From Lachnospiraceae bacterium (GTDB lineage Bacteria; Bacillota; Clostridia; Lachnospirales; Lachnospiraceae): a DNA stretch of 46,643 nt. Within the stretch, counting starts at the first letter, position 1; every line of letters begins with the position of its first letter. The stretch lies in NCBI GenBank assembly GCA_016284175.1, contig JAEEOJ010000121.1:1-46643 (forward strand), read 5' to 3'. Positions 23,926-34,220 of this stretch are shown here, piece by piece. Under the pieces are notes generated by a model. That model did no database searches. It was not told where the DNA came from and worked only from the letters and a program-made list of their open reading frames with translations. Made by a program: the position numbers and the translations under genes.

Positions 23926-24336
23926 TTAGGTCTGATTTCTGTTTTTAAGTTTCAGTCTGTTCATTTCTCTGGCAATTCTTAACTGAGCGGATTTGTATTC
24001 CTGAATACTCTGCTTCTGAAGCAATGCCTCTTTGGCCTGTTCTGCTGCAGCCTTTGCCCTGTTCTCATCAATTTCTTCGGGAGTCTCGACCGTATCGACC
24101 AGAACCTTAACATCATTGTCTGCCACAACAAGAATTCCCTGGGAAACGCAGGTGACAACTCTCTCCCCTTCGGGAAGCGTATATTCCATTATGCCCGGAA
24201 CTATGGCTGCAACCATGTTTTTATGATGAGCCATGATACCATATGAGCCGTCCGTAATCGGAACTACGAGACTTAAACAGTCACCCTCGTAAAAATTCCT
24301 CTCTGCGGCAAGAATATGAAGCGAAAAACTGTTCAT
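23926..24336 (-). CDS. atpC: ATP synthase F1 epsilon subunit
   Basis: The 136-residue epsilon subunit of the F-type ATP synthase central stalk, which can inhibit ATP hydrolysis. The N-terminal beta-sandwich (FSLHILAAERNFYEGD, TDGSYGIMAHH) and the C-terminal two-helix region (ENRAKAAAEQAKEALL ... AREMNRLKLK) are both present, at the usual length. CGGAGA precedes the ATG. It is the last gene of the operon, 3 bp after atpD, and a bidirectional terminator follows. Confidence 0.95.
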   Translation of the reverse strand: MNSFSLHILAAERNFYEGDCLSLVVPITDGSYGIMAHHKNMVAAIVPGIMEYTLPEGERVVTCVSQGILVVADNDVKVLVDTVETPEEIDENRAKAAAEQAKEALLQKQSIQEYKSAQLRIAREMNRLKLKNRNQT

Positions 24337-24339
24337 ACT

Positions 24340-25749
<1,410 letters not shown>

Positions 25750-25760
25750 TTATGGAAAAA

Positions 25761-26705
25761 TTACTGCCTTCTTGCCAGTGCTTTTTCCTTCTTTTTCTTT
25801 TTGGCACGCGCACCTGCGGATACCTCGGTTATCTCCTGAGTGATTGCCGCCTGTCTGGTGTGGTTGTACTGAACTGTAAGTTTTTCAATGAGTTCTTCCG
25901 CATTTCTGTTGGCAGATTCCATCGCATTCATACGTGCACTCTGCTCCGAACAGAAACTGTCTACAAGCGCACCGTAAATAATTCCCGTTACATAGCTTGA
26001 AATCATGTTATCCAGCGCTTCTCTCGCATTCGGATAAAACTCTATATCACCCTGAGGCCATACAAAGCCTCTTGTGGATTTCTGCTCTTCCTCGAGCTCT
26101 TTTTTGCTCATCTTAAAATCCGATCTGTTGAAAGGAAGGAGACGCATTACTTTAACCTTGGCTTCCATTCCGGATTCGTAATCGGTAAAGATAATATAAA
26201 TCTTCGAGATTTTTTTATCGTCGTATAAATCAAGCAGAAGATTTGAAATCTCTCTCGCTCTGGCTAATGTAGGATTCTGAGCCGTATAAAGAAATGTCTT
26301 TTCAATGGGAATGTTTTTGGAAGAAAAATATCTTCTTCCGTATTCACCCACAACAAAAAGAAGCTTGTCATGCTTTTTGGTCATCAGTTTACTTGCTTCT
26401 TTTATGACATTCAGATTATAAGCACCCGCAAGACCTTTATCCGCCGTAATAACAAGATATGCATACGTACCCTCTATTTCGTACGTATTGCCGGCAGGAT
26501 AAAAATATTCACTCTGAACGTTTTTAACCGTCTTGAAAATTCGCCTGATACTTAAGGCCACTTCTTCGAAGTACGGTTTGGTCTTGTCGAGTTCTTTTTT
26601 TATCTTTCTCATTTTGTTGGAGGATATAAGGTACATCGCGTTGGTGATTTTCTGAGTATCACGAACACTCTGAATATGACCTTTTATCTCCTTCATATTC
26701 GACAT
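25761..26705 (-). CDS. atpG: ATP synthase F1 gamma subunit with extended basic C-terminus
   Basis: The 314-residue rotor subunit gamma. The conserved N-terminal helix (KEIKGHIQSVRDTQKITNAM) and the C-terminal helix (NAEELIEKLTVQYNHTRQAA, ITQEITEVSAGA) are both recognisable. Gamma normally ends a few residues after this point at about 285 residues. Here a further roughly 15 residues, mostly basic (RAKKKKKEKALARRQ), follow. That end points to the top of the alpha/beta crown, next to where delta sits. AGAGGT precedes the ATG. The gene lies 12 bp after atpA and 23 bp before atpD. Confidence 0.95.
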   Translation of the reverse strand: MSNMKEIKGHIQSVRDTQKITNAMYLISSNKMRKIKKELDKTKPYFEEVALSIRRIFKTVKNVQSEYFYPAGNTYEIEGTYAYLVITADKGLAGAYNLNVIKEASKLMTKKHDKLLFVVGEYGRRYFSSKNIPIEKTFLYTAQNPTLARAREISNLLLDLYDDKKISKIYIIFTDYESGMEAKVKVMRLLPFNRSDFKMSKKELEEEQKSTRGFVWPQGDIEFYPNAREALDNMISSYVTGIIYGALVDSFCSEQSARMNAMESANRNAEELIEKLTVQYNHTRQAAITQEITEVSAGARAKKKKKEKALARRQ

Positions 26706-26717
26706 ATAAAATACCTC

Positions 26718-28463
26718 TTATTCGCGGCCCTGTTCCTTAAACTCTTTGGCGTAATTGATAATCGCCTGTTTGTCGTCATCCTCGATACGACCCGTCGAGT
26801 CAATTCTCGAACAGATATCGGGATGTGAAATTTCAAAGTATTTAAGAAGTTTAACCATTTCATCCTGTATTTCTTTTACGGGAACATCCATAAAATACTT
26901 GTTTAATGCAACCGTTAAAAGAATTACCTGTTCATGCTGTGAATAAGGCTTGTACTGCGGCTGTCTTAAAAGATACATAAGACCGTGGCCGTAAGTAAGC
27001 TGTTTCTGCGTAGCTTCGTCAAGATCGGACGAGAACTGTGTGAACACTTCCATTTCCCTGTACTGTGCCAGATCAAGTCTTAATGAACCCGAAGATTTTT
27101 TCATGGCCTTCGTCTGTGCGTCGCCGCCGACACGCGAAACAGAAAGACCGACATTAACCGCAGGTCTCTGACCTTCAAAGAACAGTTCGCTTTCAAGGAA
27201 AATCTGTCCGTCCGTAATTGAAATAATGTTAGTCGGAATATATGCCGCAACGTCGCCCGCCTGTGTTTCGACGATGGGAAGTGCGGTAATTGAACCTCCG
27301 CCGAGTTCGTCACTTAAATGTGCCGATCTCTCAAGAAGTCTTGAATGCAGATAAAATACGTCTCCGGGATAAGCCTCACGTCCGGGAGATCTGTCAAGCA
27401 AAAGACTAAGTGATCTGTATGCAATAGCATGCTTTGACAAATCATCGTATACGATAAGAACATCCTTACCCTGATGCATAAAATACTCTGCCAGCGAGCA
27501 GCCTGAATAAGGTGCTATATACTGGAAAGGAGCTGCATCTGAAGCGGATGAGTTTACGATGATTGTATAATCCATTGCTCCGTGCTTTTTAAGATTGGTA
27601 ACCATCTGTGAAATAAGGCTGGCTTTCTGTCCTATGGCTACATAGATACAGATAACATCCTTACCCTTCTGGTTAACGATTGTATCAAGTGCAATAGCGG
27701 TTTTACCTGTCTGTCTGTCGCCGATGATAAGCTCTCTCTGACCTCTTCCGATGGGGAACATCGAGTCGATACAGAGGATACCTGTTTCCATGGGTTTGTC
27801 GACAGGCTGTCTTTCAATGATTCCGGGTGCGGGTGATTCGATGGCTCTGTAATCGTCCGCATCGATATCTCCCAAACCGTCAATGGGCATTCCCAAGGGA
27901 TTTATTACTCTTCCCAGAAATGCGTTTCCTACGGGAACACCGGCACTTCTGCCTGTTCTTTTTACCCTGCTGCCCTCACAGATGGAATCGGTATCGTCAA
28001 AAAGAATACAGCCGATTTCATCAGCTCTTAAATCAAGAACCATTCCTCTGATGCCTTCGGAGAATAAAAGAATCTCTCCGTAGGTTGCAGTCTTAAGTCC
28101 CGAAACGGTTGCAATACCGTCACCGATACTTGTAACCACACCGAATTCAACGGGTGCACCGCTCGGTGTCCAGTCTTTTATGTTCTCTTTGATTAGAGGA
28201 ATGATATTCGAATCCGAACTTGCCTTTTTGCCGACATTCTTTATCATTTCCTTGAACTGTTCGAGTCTTCCTGTATTAGTCCAGTCGTATACATCAGTAC
28301 CGACTTCGAGACGGAAACCGTCTGTTACGTTCTCGTCCTCAACCCATTCAATGAAAACTTCTTTATCATATTTTCCGGCAAGGAAACTCTTTAGTTTGTT
28401 TAACTGTGCTTCCGTTGGCTCTTTTGCCGCATAAAGCACACTGAAAACCGAATCGTTATACAT
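26718..28463 (-). CDS. atpA: ATP synthase alpha subunit with fused delta C-terminal domain
   Basis: A 581-residue alpha subunit, about 80 residues longer than usual. Residues 5-77 match the C-terminal domain of subunit delta (AtpH): SVLYAAKEPTEAQLNKL, the KYDKEVFIEW strand, VTDGFRLEVGTDVYD and TGRLEQFKEMI, corresponding to the family pattern GGfri.iG...yDgS..GrLe. A short linker leads to normal alpha, starting near IPLIKENIKDW. The P-loop GDRQTGKT is at 248-255, against 169-176 in E. coli alpha. I start at 28463: AGGA lies upstream and the ATG overlaps the atpF stop by 8 bases. An ATG at 28487 has no ribosome binding site. No separate atpH exists in the operon. Confidence 0.93.
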   Translation of the reverse strand: MYNDSVFSVLYAAKEPTEAQLNKLKSFLAGKYDKEVFIEWVEDENVTDGFRLEVGTDVYDWTNTGRLEQFKEMIKNVGKKASSDSNIIPLIKENIKDWTPSGAPVEFGVVTSIGDGIATVSGLKTATYGEILLFSEGIRGMVLDLRADEIGCILFDDTDSICEGSRVKRTGRSAGVPVGNAFLGRVINPLGMPIDGLGDIDADDYRAIESPAPGIIERQPVDKPMETGILCIDSMFPIGRGQRELIIGDRQTGKTAIALDTIVNQKGKDVICIYVAIGQKASLISQMVTNLKKHGAMDYTIIVNSSASDAAPFQYIAPYSGCSLAEYFMHQGKDVLIVYDDLSKHAIAYRSLSLLLDRSPGREAYPGDVFYLHSRLLERSAHLSDELGGGSITALPIVETQAGDVAAYIPTNIISITDGQIFLESELFFEGQRPAVNVGLSVSRVGGDAQTKAMKKSSGSLRLDLAQYREMEVFTQFSSDLDEATQKQLTYGHGLMYLLRQPQYKPYSQHEQVILLTVALNKYFMDVPVKEIQDEMVKLLKYFEISHPDICSRIDSTGRIEDDDKQAIINYAKEFKEQGRE

Positions 28464-28947
28464 TGCTTTCGTCCTTATTTGCGGCATTTAAAAACTCATC
28501 GTAAGTATCCAGATTTGAATCCAGTACGATTTTTTCGGTAGCCTCATTTACTATCTCAGCGATTTCTTTCTGAGCTTCACTTATAATTCTGTCATGTTCT
28601 GCGTTGGCTTTTTCTCTTGCTTTTTTAAGAATCTTCGCAGCTTCATCATTGGCAGCGGTAATAATCCTTTCCCTGTCGGCAAAGGTTTCTTTTCCGGCTG
28701 CTTCTTTCTGAGCGTTAATCTCGGAGTCGGCATTCTTTAACTTGTTTTCATACTCAACTCTGTTCTTTTCACTCTCTTCGATTTTGCCGTTAGCCTCTTC
28801 TTCGAGTTTCTTAAAATGTTCTTCTCTCTCGTCCATGATCTTTCTGACGGGCTTGTAAAGGATAAAATACAATCCGCCGAAAAGAATCGTGAAATTCAAA
28901 AGATGCAAAAGAATCTGCTGAACATCTATGTTAAGCGGTAATTTCAT
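28456..28947 (-). CDS. atpF: ATP synthase Fo subunit b
   Basis: The 163-residue peripheral-stalk subunit b. An N-terminal membrane helix (about 10-30, LLHLLNFTILFGGLYFILY) is followed by KPVRKIMDER and a long charged coiled coil. Length and layout are normal and no delta domain is fused to it, unlike the b-delta fusion of mycobacteria. The stop codon overlaps the chosen atpA start by 8 bases. AGAGGCAGG precedes the ATG. Confidence 0.95.
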   Translation of the reverse strand: MKLPLNIDVQQILLHLLNFTILFGGLYFILYKPVRKIMDEREEHFKKLEEEANGKIEESEKNRVEYENKLKNADSEINAQKEAAGKETFADRERIITAANDEAAKILKKAREKANAEHDRIISEAQKEIAEIVNEATEKIVLDSNLDTYDEFLNAANKDESNV

Positions 28948-28968: not shown

Positions 28969-29331
28969 TTACAAAATGAATACGATGAAAATTGCTACGA
29001 TCAAACCGTAAATAATAGCTGTCTCTATAAATACAAGGCCAAGCATCATCATGGTGAAAAGTCTGCCTGCTACTTCGGGCTGACGTGCTGTTGAATCTGC
29101 TACCTTCATAATTGCAAGACACATTGATACGGCACCCAAACCTGCTACTACAGATACAACAACTGCAGCTGTAACAGCCTTTGCAACTACAACGTCGTTA
29201 TCGTTTGTTTCTGCCTTTACGATAGCTGCATCATCGCTTCCTGCCGCATATACCTTTACGGGTGCAAATGCGATTCCTAAAGATAATGCAAGGAATAATG
29301 TCAAGATAAGAGCCTTAATGGAATTTTTCAT
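28969..29331 (-). CDS. atpE: ATP synthase Fo subunit c with N-terminal leader
   Basis: A 120-residue proteolipid, about 40 residues longer than usual. Residues 1-30 look like a cleavable signal peptide (KALILTLFLALSLGIAFAP, then VYAA). The two c-subunit helices follow at about 47-78 and 90-119, with the polar loop ARQPE (82-86) and the ion-binding Glu at position 103 (FIETA). The helix 1 glycine motif is eroded (GLGAVSMCLA). By alignment with the Ilyobacter c subunit, the Na+-ligand Gln is replaced by Met, so proton use is more likely. CGGAGG precedes the ATG, inside the end of atpB. Confidence 0.9.
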   Translation of the reverse strand: MKNSIKALILTLFLALSLGIAFAPVKVYAAGSDDAAIVKAETNDNDVVVAKAVTAAVVVSVVAGLGAVSMCLAIMKVADSTARQPEVAGRLFTMMMLGLVFIETAIIYGLIVAIFIVFIL

Positions 29332-29333
29332 TG

Positions 29334-30200
29334 TTAAACCTCCGAACTAACTGTTTTCTGTTTTTTAACTTTTATTTTTTTCTCTTTTTCTTTCTTTTCA
29401 GGTTTCTCGGTTACTTCACCGTAGAATATACTTGCAAGCATTGTAAGGACGTATGCCTGAATCAGTGCATGCAGTGCGGTAAAGAGCACACCGACAAATA
29501 CGGGGATAATAAAACTCGTAGCCATGTAGTAATATACGAGTTCGGTAACAAGCGCACCTGATATAAGAGCACCGAACAAACGAAAACTCATCGAGATGGG
29601 AAGCGAGAAATCTTTTAGAGTCTTAAGCGCTCCCATAGGTCCGTTTGTAATAAAGCCGTTAACCAATATGAACAAATATGTCGTACAGCCCATCATTATG
29701 GCACCATTTATATCCGAGAGCGGAGCACCAAGGGTTATCGGCGTTCCGTGAGTGGATATTGCCTGCACACCAATGAGTTCAAACATGGTTCCCGTAAATA
29801 TGTAAGTACCCGCGGCAAACATGTAATATTGCAGGAGCCTGTATTTATGAGGGCTGTTGCTTCTCGCCGTACCGTCGAATATTCCGACTACACTTTCCAC
29901 GGCTATCTGGAACTTGCCGGGGATAAGCTTAAATTTGGGTACTGCAAAGATTCGGATTAATAATGAAACAAAGAGTACAATTCCGGTAGTCCAGAATGCG
30001 GCTATAAGTCCGGGATTTACATCTTTTAGTCCGAATAACGAAACCTTGACGTTTTCGTGAAGAACTGCGTCCTTCATTACTTCCTTGATGGTTTCTTCCT
30101 GTACCCTGTTCGGATCGTTCGTCAGGATTATTCCTGCAATCAGGCAGGCAATCAGCACTACAAATATTGCAGCGGAGATTACTATCCTTTTCTTACTCAT
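29334..30200 (-). CDS. atpB: ATP synthase Fo subunit a
   Basis: The 288-residue subunit a, which forms the proton half-channels against the c ring. Five to six membrane helices are seen; the essential Arg lies in SFRLFGALISGALV and a further conserved segment in LIQAYVLTMLASIFYG. The C-terminus carries an unusually lysine-rich cytosolic tail (EKPEKKEKEKKIKVKKQK). It lies 27 bp after purC with AAGGA upstream and no terminator in between, so purC may be part of the same transcript. Confidence 0.96.
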   Translation of the reverse strand: MSKKRIVISAAIFVVLIACLIAGIILTNDPNRVQEETIKEVMKDAVLHENVKVSLFGLKDVNPGLIAAFWTTGIVLFVSLLIRIFAVPKFKLIPGKFQIAVESVVGIFDGTARSNSPHKYRLLQYYMFAAGTYIFTGTMFELIGVQAISTHGTPITLGAPLSDINGAIMMGCTTYLFILVNGFITNGPMGALKTLKDFSLPISMSFRLFGALISGALVTELVYYYMATSFIIPVFVGVLFTALHALIQAYVLTMLASIFYGEVTEKPEKKEKEKKIKVKKQKTVSSEV

Positions 30201-30227: not shown

Positions 30228-31094
30228 TTATAATTTCTTACCTGTTAATTTTTCGTATCCTTCAAGATATATAGCGATGGTCTTATCAACTACTTCTTTT
30301 GGAAGTGTCCAGTTGTGACCCTCGTTTGCGGGGTTCTTTAACCAGTCTCTTGCAAACTGCTTGTCGTATGAAGGCTGTGAATGACCGGGTTCATATCCCT
30401 CGAGGGGCCAGAATCTGGATGAATCGGGTGTTAACATTTCATCACCGATTACGATTTCGCCGTTCTCATCGAGACCGAACTCAAATTTGGTATCAGCAAT
30501 AATGATACCTTTTGTAAGTGCATAATCAGCACATTTCTTATATAAAGCAATTGTGAGGTCGCGAAGCTTAGAAGCATATTCTTCTCCTTTTCCGGGGAAG
30601 CGCTTCTCAAGATAAACAACGCTCTGCTCGTAGCTTATATTCTCATCATGATCGCCTATCTCTGCCTTAGTGGAAGGTGTGTAAATAGGCTCAGGGAGTT
30701 TGTCTGATTCTTTTAATCCTTCGGGAAGCTTGATACCGCAAACGGTACCGTCCTTCTGATAACTTGCCCATCCGCTGCCTGTAATGTATCCTCTTACGAT
30801 ACACTCAACGGGAAGCATTGTGAGCTTCTTGCAAAGCATACTGTTGCCGTCAAACTTTTCCTGTCTGAAAAATTCGGGCATATCGTTTACGTCTACGGAA
30901 ATCATGTGATTGGGAACAATGTCCTTTGTCATGTCGAACCAGAACTTGCTCATCTGAGTTAAAACGGTTCCTTTCTTGGTGACAATGTTGTTTAAAATCA
31001 CATCAAAGCAACTGATTCTGTCAGTTGCTACCATGATTAACGTATCGCCGTTGTCATAAATCTCTCTTACTTTTCCTTCTTTTATGGGCTTCAT
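30228..31094 (-). CDS. purC: Phosphoribosylaminoimidazole-succinocarboxamide (SAICAR) synthase
   Basis: A 288-residue SAICAR synthase, which joins CAIR and aspartate with ATP in purine synthesis. Family motifs seen are EGKVREIYD, ATDRISCFDV, VECIVRGYITGSGW, IADTKFEFG and GDEMLTPDSSRFW. Length is typical of the long bacterial form. GGAGG lies 6 bases before the ATG. It has its own promoter and is followed 27 bp later by atpB without a terminator. Confidence 0.97.
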   Translation of the reverse strand: MKPIKEGKVREIYDNGDTLIMVATDRISCFDVILNNIVTKKGTVLTQMSKFWFDMTKDIVPNHMISVDVNDMPEFFRQEKFDGNSMLCKKLTMLPVECIVRGYITGSGWASYQKDGTVCGIKLPEGLKESDKLPEPIYTPSTKAEIGDHDENISYEQSVVYLEKRFPGKGEEYASKLRDLTIALYKKCADYALTKGIIIADTKFEFGLDENGEIVIGDEMLTPDSSRFWPLEGYEPGHSQPSYDKQFARDWLKNPANEGHNWTLPKEVVDKTIAIYLEGYEKLTGKKL

Positions 31095-31129
31095 CTCATC
31101 CTCCTTAGGACAAATTTTTTTCAGATTAC

Positions 31130-31158
31130 ATCATATTCCATTTTAATGTATAAATCAA
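31130..31158 (-). promoter_or_regulatory. Promoter of purC (and possibly the atp operon)
   Basis: On the minus strand TTGATT (31153-31158) and TATGAT (31130-31135) are 17 bp apart. The -35 box overlaps the stop codon of the preceding gene. The next downstream terminator is at 23887, after atpC. Confidence 0.6.
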
Positions 31159-32174
31159 TCATCATTTCTCTTTTTTAACTTCGTTAATTTCGAGATTTCA
31201 TAAAGCAGAAGTCCTATAAAAACCGTGCCTGAAGTTACAAACGAAACAACCTTCACTACAGCCTTAGGAGCAAGGAGGTCTTCCTCGTATCTGGCTATCT
31301 TTTCCCAGTAGGGATAAATGATGTCGTGATTCTGCATTGAACGGTATTTTTTGTTCTTGTAAATCATCCAGAGATTTTCCACACTGTAACGCGAGGAATT
31401 ATCGACTATTTCATATGTGGAACTGTCCATCGTGATCAGATCTGTCATGATATTTGCCGCAAAGTTTTTAATCGGATTGGGCATGCAGACTTCAAGACTT
31501 GTGATGTATAATGGCGCTTCTTCTGAATTGAGGAGTTCAAAAGGCACAAAAATCTCGGGTTTATCCCCTCTGGCGTAATTGTAAATCTTTCCTTCGCTTT
31601 TCTTGTAAACGCCCTTTACATAAAGCACTCTGTCGCCGAAGAGAACTTTCTGTCCTTCCACATTGCTTGAACCGAAAAGCTGCCATGCGGTTTCTTCATC
31701 CAGTATAACGCCGTCCTGCATCAGATCGTTTCCGGAAAAATATGTTCCGGACAAAAGTTTTACAGGATGGAATTTGAAGAAATCACCGCCTACAGCCATA
31801 CAGTTTACACCCATGGTTTTGCAGGGACCTTCAAGCGTTATGGTTGTTTTGGAAACATAACAGTCGATAAATCTTCTTGATTCCTCGCTCTCGGCAAAAA
31901 CAGAATTGAAATCCAGTTTTTCGTTCAACTCATATTCAAATCCGTCGACATCGGTTTTGGTGAAAAAAGCCGTATCTTTTATGAAAACAGATACATGAGA
32001 AGAATTACCGGATTTATCCCATCTCTTCGCAACCGTCTGATCCTGATATTTGTTGGCACCTATGGATATGATAATGCTCATAACGATACCGATTATCAGA
32101 GTGACTAAGGAAATAGCCAGGCAGACCGCTCTGTAATATTTTATTTTGGAAAGAAATCTTTTTATTTTTTCCAT
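31155..32174 (-). CDS. Reduced MacB/FtsX-like membrane protein
   Basis: A 339-residue protein with one N-terminal membrane segment (about 16-38), an extracellular domain of about 260 residues resembling the MacB periplasmic core, and only one C-terminal membrane segment (about 305-325). Seen in the core are GGDFFKFHPVKLLSGTYF and DGVILDEETAWQLFG, typical of ABC permease PCD domains. Classic MacB/FtsX permeases have four membrane segments, so the last two are missing. No frameshift is evident. No ATPase gene is nearby. Its ATG lacks a clear ribosome binding site and follows the HlyD-like stop by 3 bp, suggesting coupled translation. Confidence 0.7.
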   Translation of the reverse strand: MEKIKRFLSKIKYYRAVCLAISLVTLIIGIVMSIIISIGANKYQDQTVAKRWDKSGNSSHVSVFIKDTAFFTKTDVDGFEYELNEKLDFNSVFAESEESRRFIDCYVSKTTITLEGPCKTMGVNCMAVGGDFFKFHPVKLLSGTYFSGNDLMQDGVILDEETAWQLFGSSNVEGQKVLFGDRVLYVKGVYKKSEGKIYNYARGDKPEIFVPFELLNSEEAPLYITSLEVCMPNPIKNFAANIMTDLITMDSSTYEIVDNSSRYSVENLWMIYKNKKYRSMQNHDIIYPYWEKIARYEEDLLAPKAVVKVVSFVTSGTVFIGLLLYEISKLTKLKKRNDD

Positions 32175-32177
32175 AGT

Positions 32178-34220
32178 TTAATCGGCAAGTTTAACCTGAT
32201 CCTTGTTTTCGATATACTTTGAAGAATTTGTAATAACATATTCATAACCGAAAAGCTCAGCATCTACAGCTGTGACTTTATCATCCTGAGCAAGTACGGT
32301 TACATCCACTCTTTTTGCTATGTATCTTGAGCCGAAAGGTGTGCTCTTGGTATCAACAATCAAAACGAAATGACCGCTGTTGTCTTCATGAACTGCGGCA
32401 TTCGGAACTATTAAGTCATAATTGGAACTCTTCTCTCCGACAGAAAGTGTAAGATTCTGTCCGGGATTAACCGATTCGCCGGAAAGTGAAAATACAAGAA
32501 GCTTTCCGTCTCTTGAATTGTTTTTGTCGGGCTGAATGGCAACGAGATTGACATTTAAGTCACCGTAGTACCAGGAGTTTTCAACTGATACGGGATCTCC
32601 GACTTTAACAGCCTTAGCCTGCTTAGCATTGACAGGGAAAGAAAGTTTGTAGCCCTTACCGTCTATCTGAATAACTGCCGCAGTGCTGCCTGCTTCAATC
32701 TTTTCGCCGCCTGAATATGCCAGTGAAGTAATTTCACCGGTAACGGGGCTTTTAATCTCTCCGCCGAGTGCTTTGGCTTCAAGATCCTTAATCTCTTTTT
32801 CCTTCTTAAGAATTTCCTGATATTTTGATTCAAGACCCATCTTGGTCTTTTCTGTTGAAAGGTAATCTGCTCTGGAAGCTTCAAGTTTCTCAATCTTTGA
32901 TTTAAGATCGCCGATTTCAACAGACATATCATATTCCTGTTTCTTGAGGTTCTGATAATTCTGATTATTCTGGTTGTTTGAAGAATTTGCAGAATTCTTT
33001 TTGTTTGTAAGATTTGTATTTGCCTGATTAAGTGCAGCCTGCTTTGCGTTAACATCTGCCTGAGCATTGGAAATCTGCTCATCGGTAGGAGCGTTGGCGG
33101 AAAGTGCGTTTGCTTCGTCCATTGCTGTCTTGGCTGTATTTAAAGCAGCTTCCGCATCCTCTTTGTTTTTCTTGCAGGTATTGTAATTCTTTTCTGCGTC
33201 ATCCTTTGCTGTAAGAGCAGCATCCATTGCATCTTTTGCAGAGTTCATTGCCGTCTCGGCTTTGTTCATTGCTGCCTGAGCATCAATCCATGCCTGTTTT
33301 TTTGCATCATCATTTTGATCTGCATTATATTCATTTTCAGCAGTCTGGTATGCCGTCTTCGCATTGTTATAATCGGTTGTTTTGGTCTGATAATCATTAT
33401 ATTTGTTTGCATAGTCCGACTTCTTGGTTTCATAATCGGCCTCTGCTTCGTCAAATAATGTTTTTACACCCTTCTTGCTGTCTGTTCCGTAGAAATTGTC
33501 TTTCTCAGCGTTGTAATTTGCAAGTGCATCACTCTTTGCCTTTGCAATCTGTACTGCCTGGGATTTTGCTTCGTTTAAACTGTTCAAAATGCTCTTTGCA
33601 CTGTCAAGCGCAGTCTGAGCATCTTCCACAGCCTTTTCCTCTGCGGAATAATCAACTGTTGTCGAAGAACCTGAAGGATCGGTTACAGAAATCTGATGTT
33701 CAACTTCGGAATGCTTCTTTTCTTTTTCTTCAAGCTGGGACTTTAACGAATTGATTTCAGCATCCTTGCTTTCAAGAGTACTTAAAATTGTTCCCGTGGC
33801 ATTCTTAACGCCTGCCTCAACACTTGCAACCTCTGCCTGTGTCAGACCGCTTTCAAGGATAGTAAGTTCATAGTCACCCTTTAAACTATCAAGTTCGTTT
33901 TTCGCCGTGGTAAGTTCTTCACTTGTTTCTCCTAAAAGATAATAAATGATATCGCCTTCCTCAACATGATCTCCCACGCGAACGGGGCAGCTTTTAACTT
34001 TTCTGGTCTCATCGATAATAAGATTGTAAGGATCTTCTGCCTCAACGACACCGTCTCCTCTTACCTGTGTAGTTACCGGTCCGCTTGTTACAGACTGCGT
34101 ACTAACTTCGGGAAGCGTTCTGTTCATAATGGTATTGGAAAAAAATGTGAGAATTAACATTATCACAAGAAAAACAATTGCAATATTTTTAATGATTTCT
34201 CTCTTCTTCAAACTTTTCAT
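32178..34220 (-). CDS. HlyD/membrane-fusion-like adaptor with long coiled coil
   Basis: A 680-residue protein. An N-terminal membrane segment (about 11-31) is followed by half of a lipoyl/barrel-sandwich domain (VKSCPVRVGDHVEEGDIIYY). A coiled coil of about 390 residues rich in Ala, Asn, Asp and Lys comes next, then the second half of the lipoyl domain (EIKSPVTGEITSLAYSGGEK) and beta-barrel domains to the end. This is the order of HlyD/AcrA-type adaptors. The coiled coil is unusually long and of low complexity. It lies between the sugar-type permease genes (15 bp) and the MacB-like gene (3 bp). GGAGG precedes the ATG. Confidence 0.85.
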   Translation of the reverse strand: MKSLKKREIIKNIAIVFLVIMLILTFFSNTIMNRTLPEVSTQSVTSGPVTTQVRGDGVVEAEDPYNLIIDETRKVKSCPVRVGDHVEEGDIIYYLLGETSEELTTAKNELDSLKGDYELTILESGLTQAEVASVEAGVKNATGTILSTLESKDAEINSLKSQLEEKEKKHSEVEHQISVTDPSGSSTTVDYSAEEKAVEDAQTALDSAKSILNSLNEAKSQAVQIAKAKSDALANYNAEKDNFYGTDSKKGVKTLFDEAEADYETKKSDYANKYNDYQTKTTDYNNAKTAYQTAENEYNADQNDDAKKQAWIDAQAAMNKAETAMNSAKDAMDAALTAKDDAEKNYNTCKKNKEDAEAALNTAKTAMDEANALSANAPTDEQISNAQADVNAKQAALNQANTNLTNKKNSANSSNNQNNQNYQNLKKQEYDMSVEIGDLKSKIEKLEASRADYLSTEKTKMGLESKYQEILKKEKEIKDLEAKALGGEIKSPVTGEITSLAYSGGEKIEAGSTAAVIQIDGKGYKLSFPVNAKQAKAVKVGDPVSVENSWYYGDLNVNLVAIQPDKNNSRDGKLLVFSLSGESVNPGQNLTLSVGEKSSNYDLIVPNAAVHEDNSGHFVLIVDTKSTPFGSRYIAKRVDVTVLAQDDKVTAVDAELFGYEYVITNSSKYIENKDQVKLAD

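Follow-up and report, generated by a model that had tools for sequence, protein, structure and literature searches.

How does an F-type ATPase hold its peripheral stalk when its operon lacks a gene for the delta subunit? In known enzymes the N-terminal helix of alpha docks on delta, and one a-subunit per enzyme is the working rule of F-type ATP synthases. The question is raised by an operon of a Lachnospiraceae bacterium, located in the stretch of 46,643 nucleotides that was analysed here as a whole (the window). The operon lies on the minus strand in the order a-c-b-alpha-gamma-beta-epsilon, i.e., the B-E-F-A-G-D-C order that the original prediction had read from it, and all seven subunit families exceeded their Pfam cut-offs: atpB (a subunit, 29334..30200, 288 aa, PF00119), atpE (c subunit, 28969..29331, 120 aa, PF00137 at residues 55-116, after a long N-terminal extension), atpF (b subunit, 28456..28947, 163 aa, with PF00430 as the sole family over the cut-off and no delta fused to it), atpA (alpha, 26718..28487, 589 aa), atpG (gamma, 25761..26705, 314 aa, PF00231), atpD (beta, 24340..25737, 465 aa, PF02874 and PF00006) and atpC (epsilon, 23926..24336, 136 aa, PF02823 and PF00401). 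A separate delta was found in this operon neither in the ORF list nor by Pfam, and the ORF list contains no extra ORF of at least 100 aa between the seven atp genes. Upstream of the operon (30228-34220) are an ORF that by eye resembles SAICAR synthase, an ORF of 339 aa and one of 680 aa with a long charged, coiled-coil-like stretch.

Part of delta is present in the operon, because its C-terminal domain is joined to the N-terminus of alpha, and this is a real fusion. PF00213 (the OSCP/delta family) matched alpha above its cut-off from profile position 102 to 170 of 172, at alpha residues 13-80 (28248..28451, minus strand), followed by PF02874, PF00006 and PF00306 over cut-off, and the fold of this region (AlphaFold/Foldseek) matched the C-terminal domain of delta/OSCP. 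The six-helix N-terminal domain of delta is absent from alpha, the PF00213 matches starting only at profile positions 100-102 (alpha residues 11-13). Behind a short linker the N-terminal helix of alpha itself is still present (residues about 94-106, 28170..28208, minus strand; predicted at residues 87-96 of the modelled fragment) and aligned with the alpha N-terminus of PDB entry 9jc1, although its usual partner, the delta N-terminal domain, is gone. Both halves of the original prediction, that the stalk-binding part of delta is covalently attached to alpha and that the alpha-gripping part has been lost, were thus borne out by the profile match and the fold. The fused domain is also under purifying selection (dN/dS 0.00-0.17 vs 0.04-0.07 in the alpha core, the fused domain diverging more).

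The window comes from a draft genome (148 contigs, 5.11% estimated contamination), and an assembly error, a contamination or a decaying gene might be suspected. Against this, the fused alpha was found in 20 of the 25 genomes of the genus, one of which (G004) has both the fused alpha and a canonical delta on the same contig, so that contamination does not explain the pair; moreover, purifying selection acts on the gene, and the alpha ORF was at least 570 aa long in 77 of the 80 loci retained (out of 165 found) in a set of named loci. We regard an artefact as hardly credible and in our view already refuted. The claim that atpH is missing held for the window operon but not for the genome, in which a complete atpH (183 aa, PF00213) is located on another contig (C72). 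It belongs to a second operon, a canonical one (a-c-b-delta-alpha-gamma-beta-epsilon), and the alpha encoded there shares about 56% identity with that of the window; no second separate delta exceeded the Pfam cut-off in this genome. Across the genus a separate delta occurred in 23 of the 25 genomes (incomplete in one, where the contig ends) and both forms together in 18; since five of the 25 lack the fused alpha, it is not essential there.

Long alphas of this kind also occur among relatives, as shown by a survey of the sort proposed with the original prediction. When 392 genomes drawn from the order were searched with a profile covering the first 100 residues, fused alpha ORFs (at least 570 aa, no stop) were counted in at least 63 among the matches listed, in the families f1, f8 and f17. 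A draw from the class at E 1e-6 yielded fused alphas in 29 of 391 genomes (one cut at 509 aa), 19 of them outside the order. Outside the class, a draw from the phylum gave seven genomes out of 398 with an uninterrupted fused ORF of at least 600 aa and one more that was cut short; in most other matches a stop separated adjoining delta and alpha genes. The fused-alpha loci include Lachnospiraceae, Oscillibacter sp. ER4, Faecalibacterium, Mogibacterium, Christensenellaceae and Eubacterium ruminantium; the stalk-gripping part is borne by alpha in some gut and rumen bacteria.

The window operon is one member of a clade found across the Clostridia in three states: with a separate delta, with a whole delta fused to alpha, and, as in the window, with only the delta C-terminal domain fused to alpha. 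Among 56 of the 63 order genomes, the PF00213 match was mainly limited to the C-terminal domain in 37 (alpha frames of 584-623 aa) and ran from profile positions 5-26 to 167-172 in 19 (671-758 aa), corresponding to a nearly whole delta on alpha. For one long form (L142), six delta N-terminal helices (pLDDT about 85-95), the C-terminal domain and the alpha helix were predicted, and its N-terminal part matched whole delta chains. In the third state the separate delta comprised 167-181 aa and overlapped alpha by 4 bases in 10 of 18 loci. Phylogenetic trees were built on the alpha core and beta, with the fused extension excluded, and the three states formed one clade apart from the canonical F-ATPases (SH-aLRT 100; two trees). 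Truncated and whole fusions were sisters at supported forks (L140/L165, L146/L153, L138/L152), and the supported branches forced at least five changes of the truncated label on one tree and at least six on the other. A single origin of the truncated state (23 truncated rows of 51) was rejected by the AU test with p 8.5e-05, and with p 8.9e-05 when four long-branched rows were dropped from the group, although this test used a quick LG+G4 tree and a group named after the trees had been inspected. Since regain of a lost domain is unlikely, fusion probably came first, followed by repeated loss of the N-terminal domain: an intact delta would initially have been joined to alpha, and several lineages, that of the window among them, would later have trimmed it to its C-terminal domain. 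The basal order of the three states (unfused as ancestral or as re-split) differed between the trees.

Of the seven fusions from outside the class, six were fetched (L217-L222), and all six fell outside the Clostridia clade in a tree without canonical enzymes of their own classes; they may have independent origins. They are truncated delta-alpha fusions, and their delta part resembles the canonical sequence type. One genome (G396) carries three F-type operons (the L178/L179/L162 set: a canonical one, an unfused alternative and a truncated-fusion alternative) and three gammas. In two genomes of different families (G660, L227:4615-6999; G538, L228:4597-6957), a single frame without a stop (794 and 786 aa) spans both gamma and beta, i.e., a rotor and a stator subunit in one ORF, and an internal ATG after an AAGGA-like stretch precedes beta, which may also start separately.

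The co-occurrence of fused alpha and separate delta in 18 of the 25 genus genomes would fit a fused enzyme that borrows the canonical delta from the other operon, but in 31 of 76 genomes selected for a fused-alpha match (15 of 56 from the order and 16 of 20 further ones from the class) no separate delta was found, nor was there one in the genus members G008 and G016, though these are only 83% and 86% complete; we therefore consider borrowing very improbable. The complete atpH on C72 is to the letter what had been named as evidence against the original prediction, but not in its sense, given the 31 genomes in which no separate delta was found. Twenty-three of the 31 have the truncated and eight the whole-delta fusion, so that in 23 genomes nothing delta-like was found besides the truncated fusion; two of these (G681 and G438) consist of a single contig. 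A delta N-terminal domain encoded elsewhere was also considered and rejected: in the 31 genomes Pfam detected this domain only as part of the whole-delta fusions, and a delta N-terminal profile, which covered 13 of the 23 truncated-only genomes (those of the order, the other 10 being left out), recovered its controls (three whole-delta fusions and the canonical delta of G000) and nothing credible besides (best E 0.125 in G325, at chance level). Exactly one gamma was present in 30 of the 31 genomes (none was found in G492), and therefore no second F-ATPase is seen there; in a gamma count over 37 genomes, the other 22 held two or three. An A/V-type ATPase is also present in 26 of the 31; it was not found in G077, G515 and G622 (truncated fusion, 98-99% complete), G361 (whole fusion, 100% complete) and G727 (71% complete). 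The fused enzyme is mostly a second rotary ATPase, but it can apparently stand alone.

On alpha, the delta C-terminal domain would serve as the docking site for the C-termini of the b dimer, and the stator would be anchored covalently through alpha; judged by homology, a stator borne by alpha is very likely. Given that the delta C-terminal domain resides on alpha and the N-terminal half is gone, a different stator geometry, as had been supposed, can be expected. In E. coli the stalk contacts all three alpha N-terminal helices asymmetrically (PMC5214741). The delta N-terminal domain lies on the pseudo-threefold axis and has been argued to restrict the enzyme to one stalk; when it was deleted in Bacillus PS3 and the remainder of delta fused to alpha, enzymes with up to three stalks were obtained (Ueno et al. 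2025, PMC12229609). On gels the engineered enzyme contained 2.2 times the a-subunit and 1.8 times the b-subunit, its H+/ATP ratio was 5.8 vs 3.0, and 15, 51, 26 and 8% of its cryo-EM particles had none, one, two and three stalks (mean 1.26, a low value put down by the authors to loss in grid preparation). In the natural enzyme, where no delta N-terminal domain occupies the middle of the alpha3-beta3 crown, a stalk could bind to every one of the three domains carried by the alphas, and each extra stalk with its own a-subunit would raise the number of ions per ATP and allow work at low ion-motive force. By analogy with the engineered enzyme, the chance that the natural one carries more than one stalk may be put at about even.

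Only one of the three alpha-borne domains might instead bind a b dimer while the others stay idle, the N-terminal domain having become redundant after covalent attachment and the ion stoichiometry being unchanged. This accounts equally well for the repeated domain loss after fusion, it agrees with the 51% of engineered particles that had one stalk (PMC12229609), and the whole-delta fusions also bear three delta copies whose use is not obvious; however, the three sites are almost identical in the engineered enzyme, whose gel stoichiometry and H+/ATP ratio fit about two stalks (PMC12229609), and nothing in our analysis restricts the natural enzyme to one. We give such a single stalk somewhat less than an even chance. 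The stoichiometry puzzle would also be resolved if an internal start or cleavage left the delta domain on just one of the three alpha copies, giving the usual stator with one delta. Four of 60 fused genes contain, near the linker, an in-frame start whose Shine-Dalgarno match comprises at least 5 bases, but the window gene has none and no site was common to more than two of the 60; internal translation was rejected as a solution, and two alpha forms in general appear improbable.

The ion used was judged from the c-ring. At the four positions that we take to be those of the sodium site (Q32, E65, S66 and Y70 of Ilyobacter), the canonical c-subunits read QETY (12 of 16) or EETY (4 of 16), and the 73 of the alternative clade METY (31, the window type), IEAY (39), IEGF (2) or LEAY (1), the first position being neither Q nor E without exception (a c subunit was found in 89 of 95 tree rows). 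These letters suggest that the fused enzyme uses protons and that many of the partner F-ATPases use sodium; the window enzyme, which shares E, T and Y with the sodium type, is probably proton-driven on this call from four letters. Since the other F-ATPase of its genome has sodium-type letters, the two rotary enzymes of the cell may use different ions. A PNAS paper of 2020 reportedly describes two ATP synthases in Pseudobutyrivibrio ruminis, in agreement with a proton and sodium pairing. The c-subunits also differ in length: that of the window is extended at its N-terminus by about 50 residues, which by eye start hydrophobic and signal-like; 31 of 46 truncated-fusion tree rows have c-subunits of at least 109 aa, and the 27 whole-fusion and unfused clade members with c found have 70-83 aa.

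Taken together, we consider it likely that the window operon encodes a complete second F-type ATPase from a Clostridia-wide clade. That the clade includes natural multi-stalk ATPases, in which b dimers and a-subunits would each number up to three, which would have arisen several times by fusion and subsequent domain loss and which would work on protons in low gear alongside either a sodium-type F-ATPase or an A/V-type ATPase, is a reading whose chances fall just short of even. A clade that shows three states, and in which the domain held responsible for the one-stalk limit was repeatedly lost, offers a natural test bed, to which the single-contig genomes with no other delta found add, as do strains not labelled MAG (Lachnospiraceae bacterium G41, Eubacterium ruminantium FB3002, Oscillibacter sp. 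ER4). A gear change by stalk number in natural ATP synthases thereby becomes directly testable, and the multi-stalk layout of the engineers may already be in natural use.

Compared with known systems, the window operon shares with canonical bacterial F-type ATP synthases the families a, c, b, alpha, gamma, beta and epsilon and the common gene order, but differs by having no separate delta and no delta N-terminal domain and by belonging to a distinct alpha-plus-beta clade. Like the mycobacterial b-delta fusion, it joins a delta domain to another stator subunit; the mycobacterial fusion has delta on b and keeps the N-terminal domain. Long b-delta chains appeared among the PDB matches, and such a fusion was rejected for the window, where b is ordinary (163 aa, PF00430 only) and the C-terminal piece is on alpha instead. 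The N-type ATPase, which has the extra genes AtpQ and AtpR, is similarly an extra F-type ATPase with no delta gene (PMC5706428), but there a longer b replaces delta, and its gene order starts with beta-epsilon (PMC5709465); the ordinary b and the order of the window operon, in which beta-epsilon does not precede a-c-b-alpha-gamma, led us to reject this assignment. In Chloroflexus aurantiacus, PDB entries (9itj and related) contain three alpha, two delta, two a and four b chains each (12 delta and 18 alpha in six entries; 36 a and 72 b in 18 entries), which suggests a natural two-stalk enzyme if one entry equals one enzyme; unlike in the window, however, delta (157 aa) forms a chain of its own there. 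The open-access literature search yielded no paper on this ATP synthase.

The fusion principle itself is already known, contrary to the supposition that no alpha-delta fusion had been described: besides the engineered PS3 enzyme, Ueno et al. 2025 (PMC12229609) mention a delta-alpha fusion with no N-terminal domain in Acidaminococcus fermentans, name two UniProt entries (G4Q3K6, A0A1I2C5T3), show that the one-a rule breaks once this domain is deleted and the remainder placed on alpha, and suggest that nature may have done likewise. In the open-access literature (subscription papers lay outside the search) we recognised no description of the Clostridia clade, of the whole delta-alpha fusion or of the repeated loss; in the passages of Niu et al. 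that were covered, a delta domain is not mentioned. The closest counterpart is the engineered PS3 chain, the best PDB sequence match of the natural N-terminal profile A4 (E 1.6e-14), a match that is partly trivial because the chain of 9jc1 contains both domains. Residues 16-125 of the window alpha align with residues 6-116 of 9jc1_I through the linker (110 vs 111 residues), and in both the delta C-terminal domain directly precedes alpha, the N-terminal domain is absent and the linker is of nearly equal length. Unlike the engineered enzyme, the window type is natural, belongs to a clade with unfused and whole-fused members and usually occurs beside another rotary ATPase.
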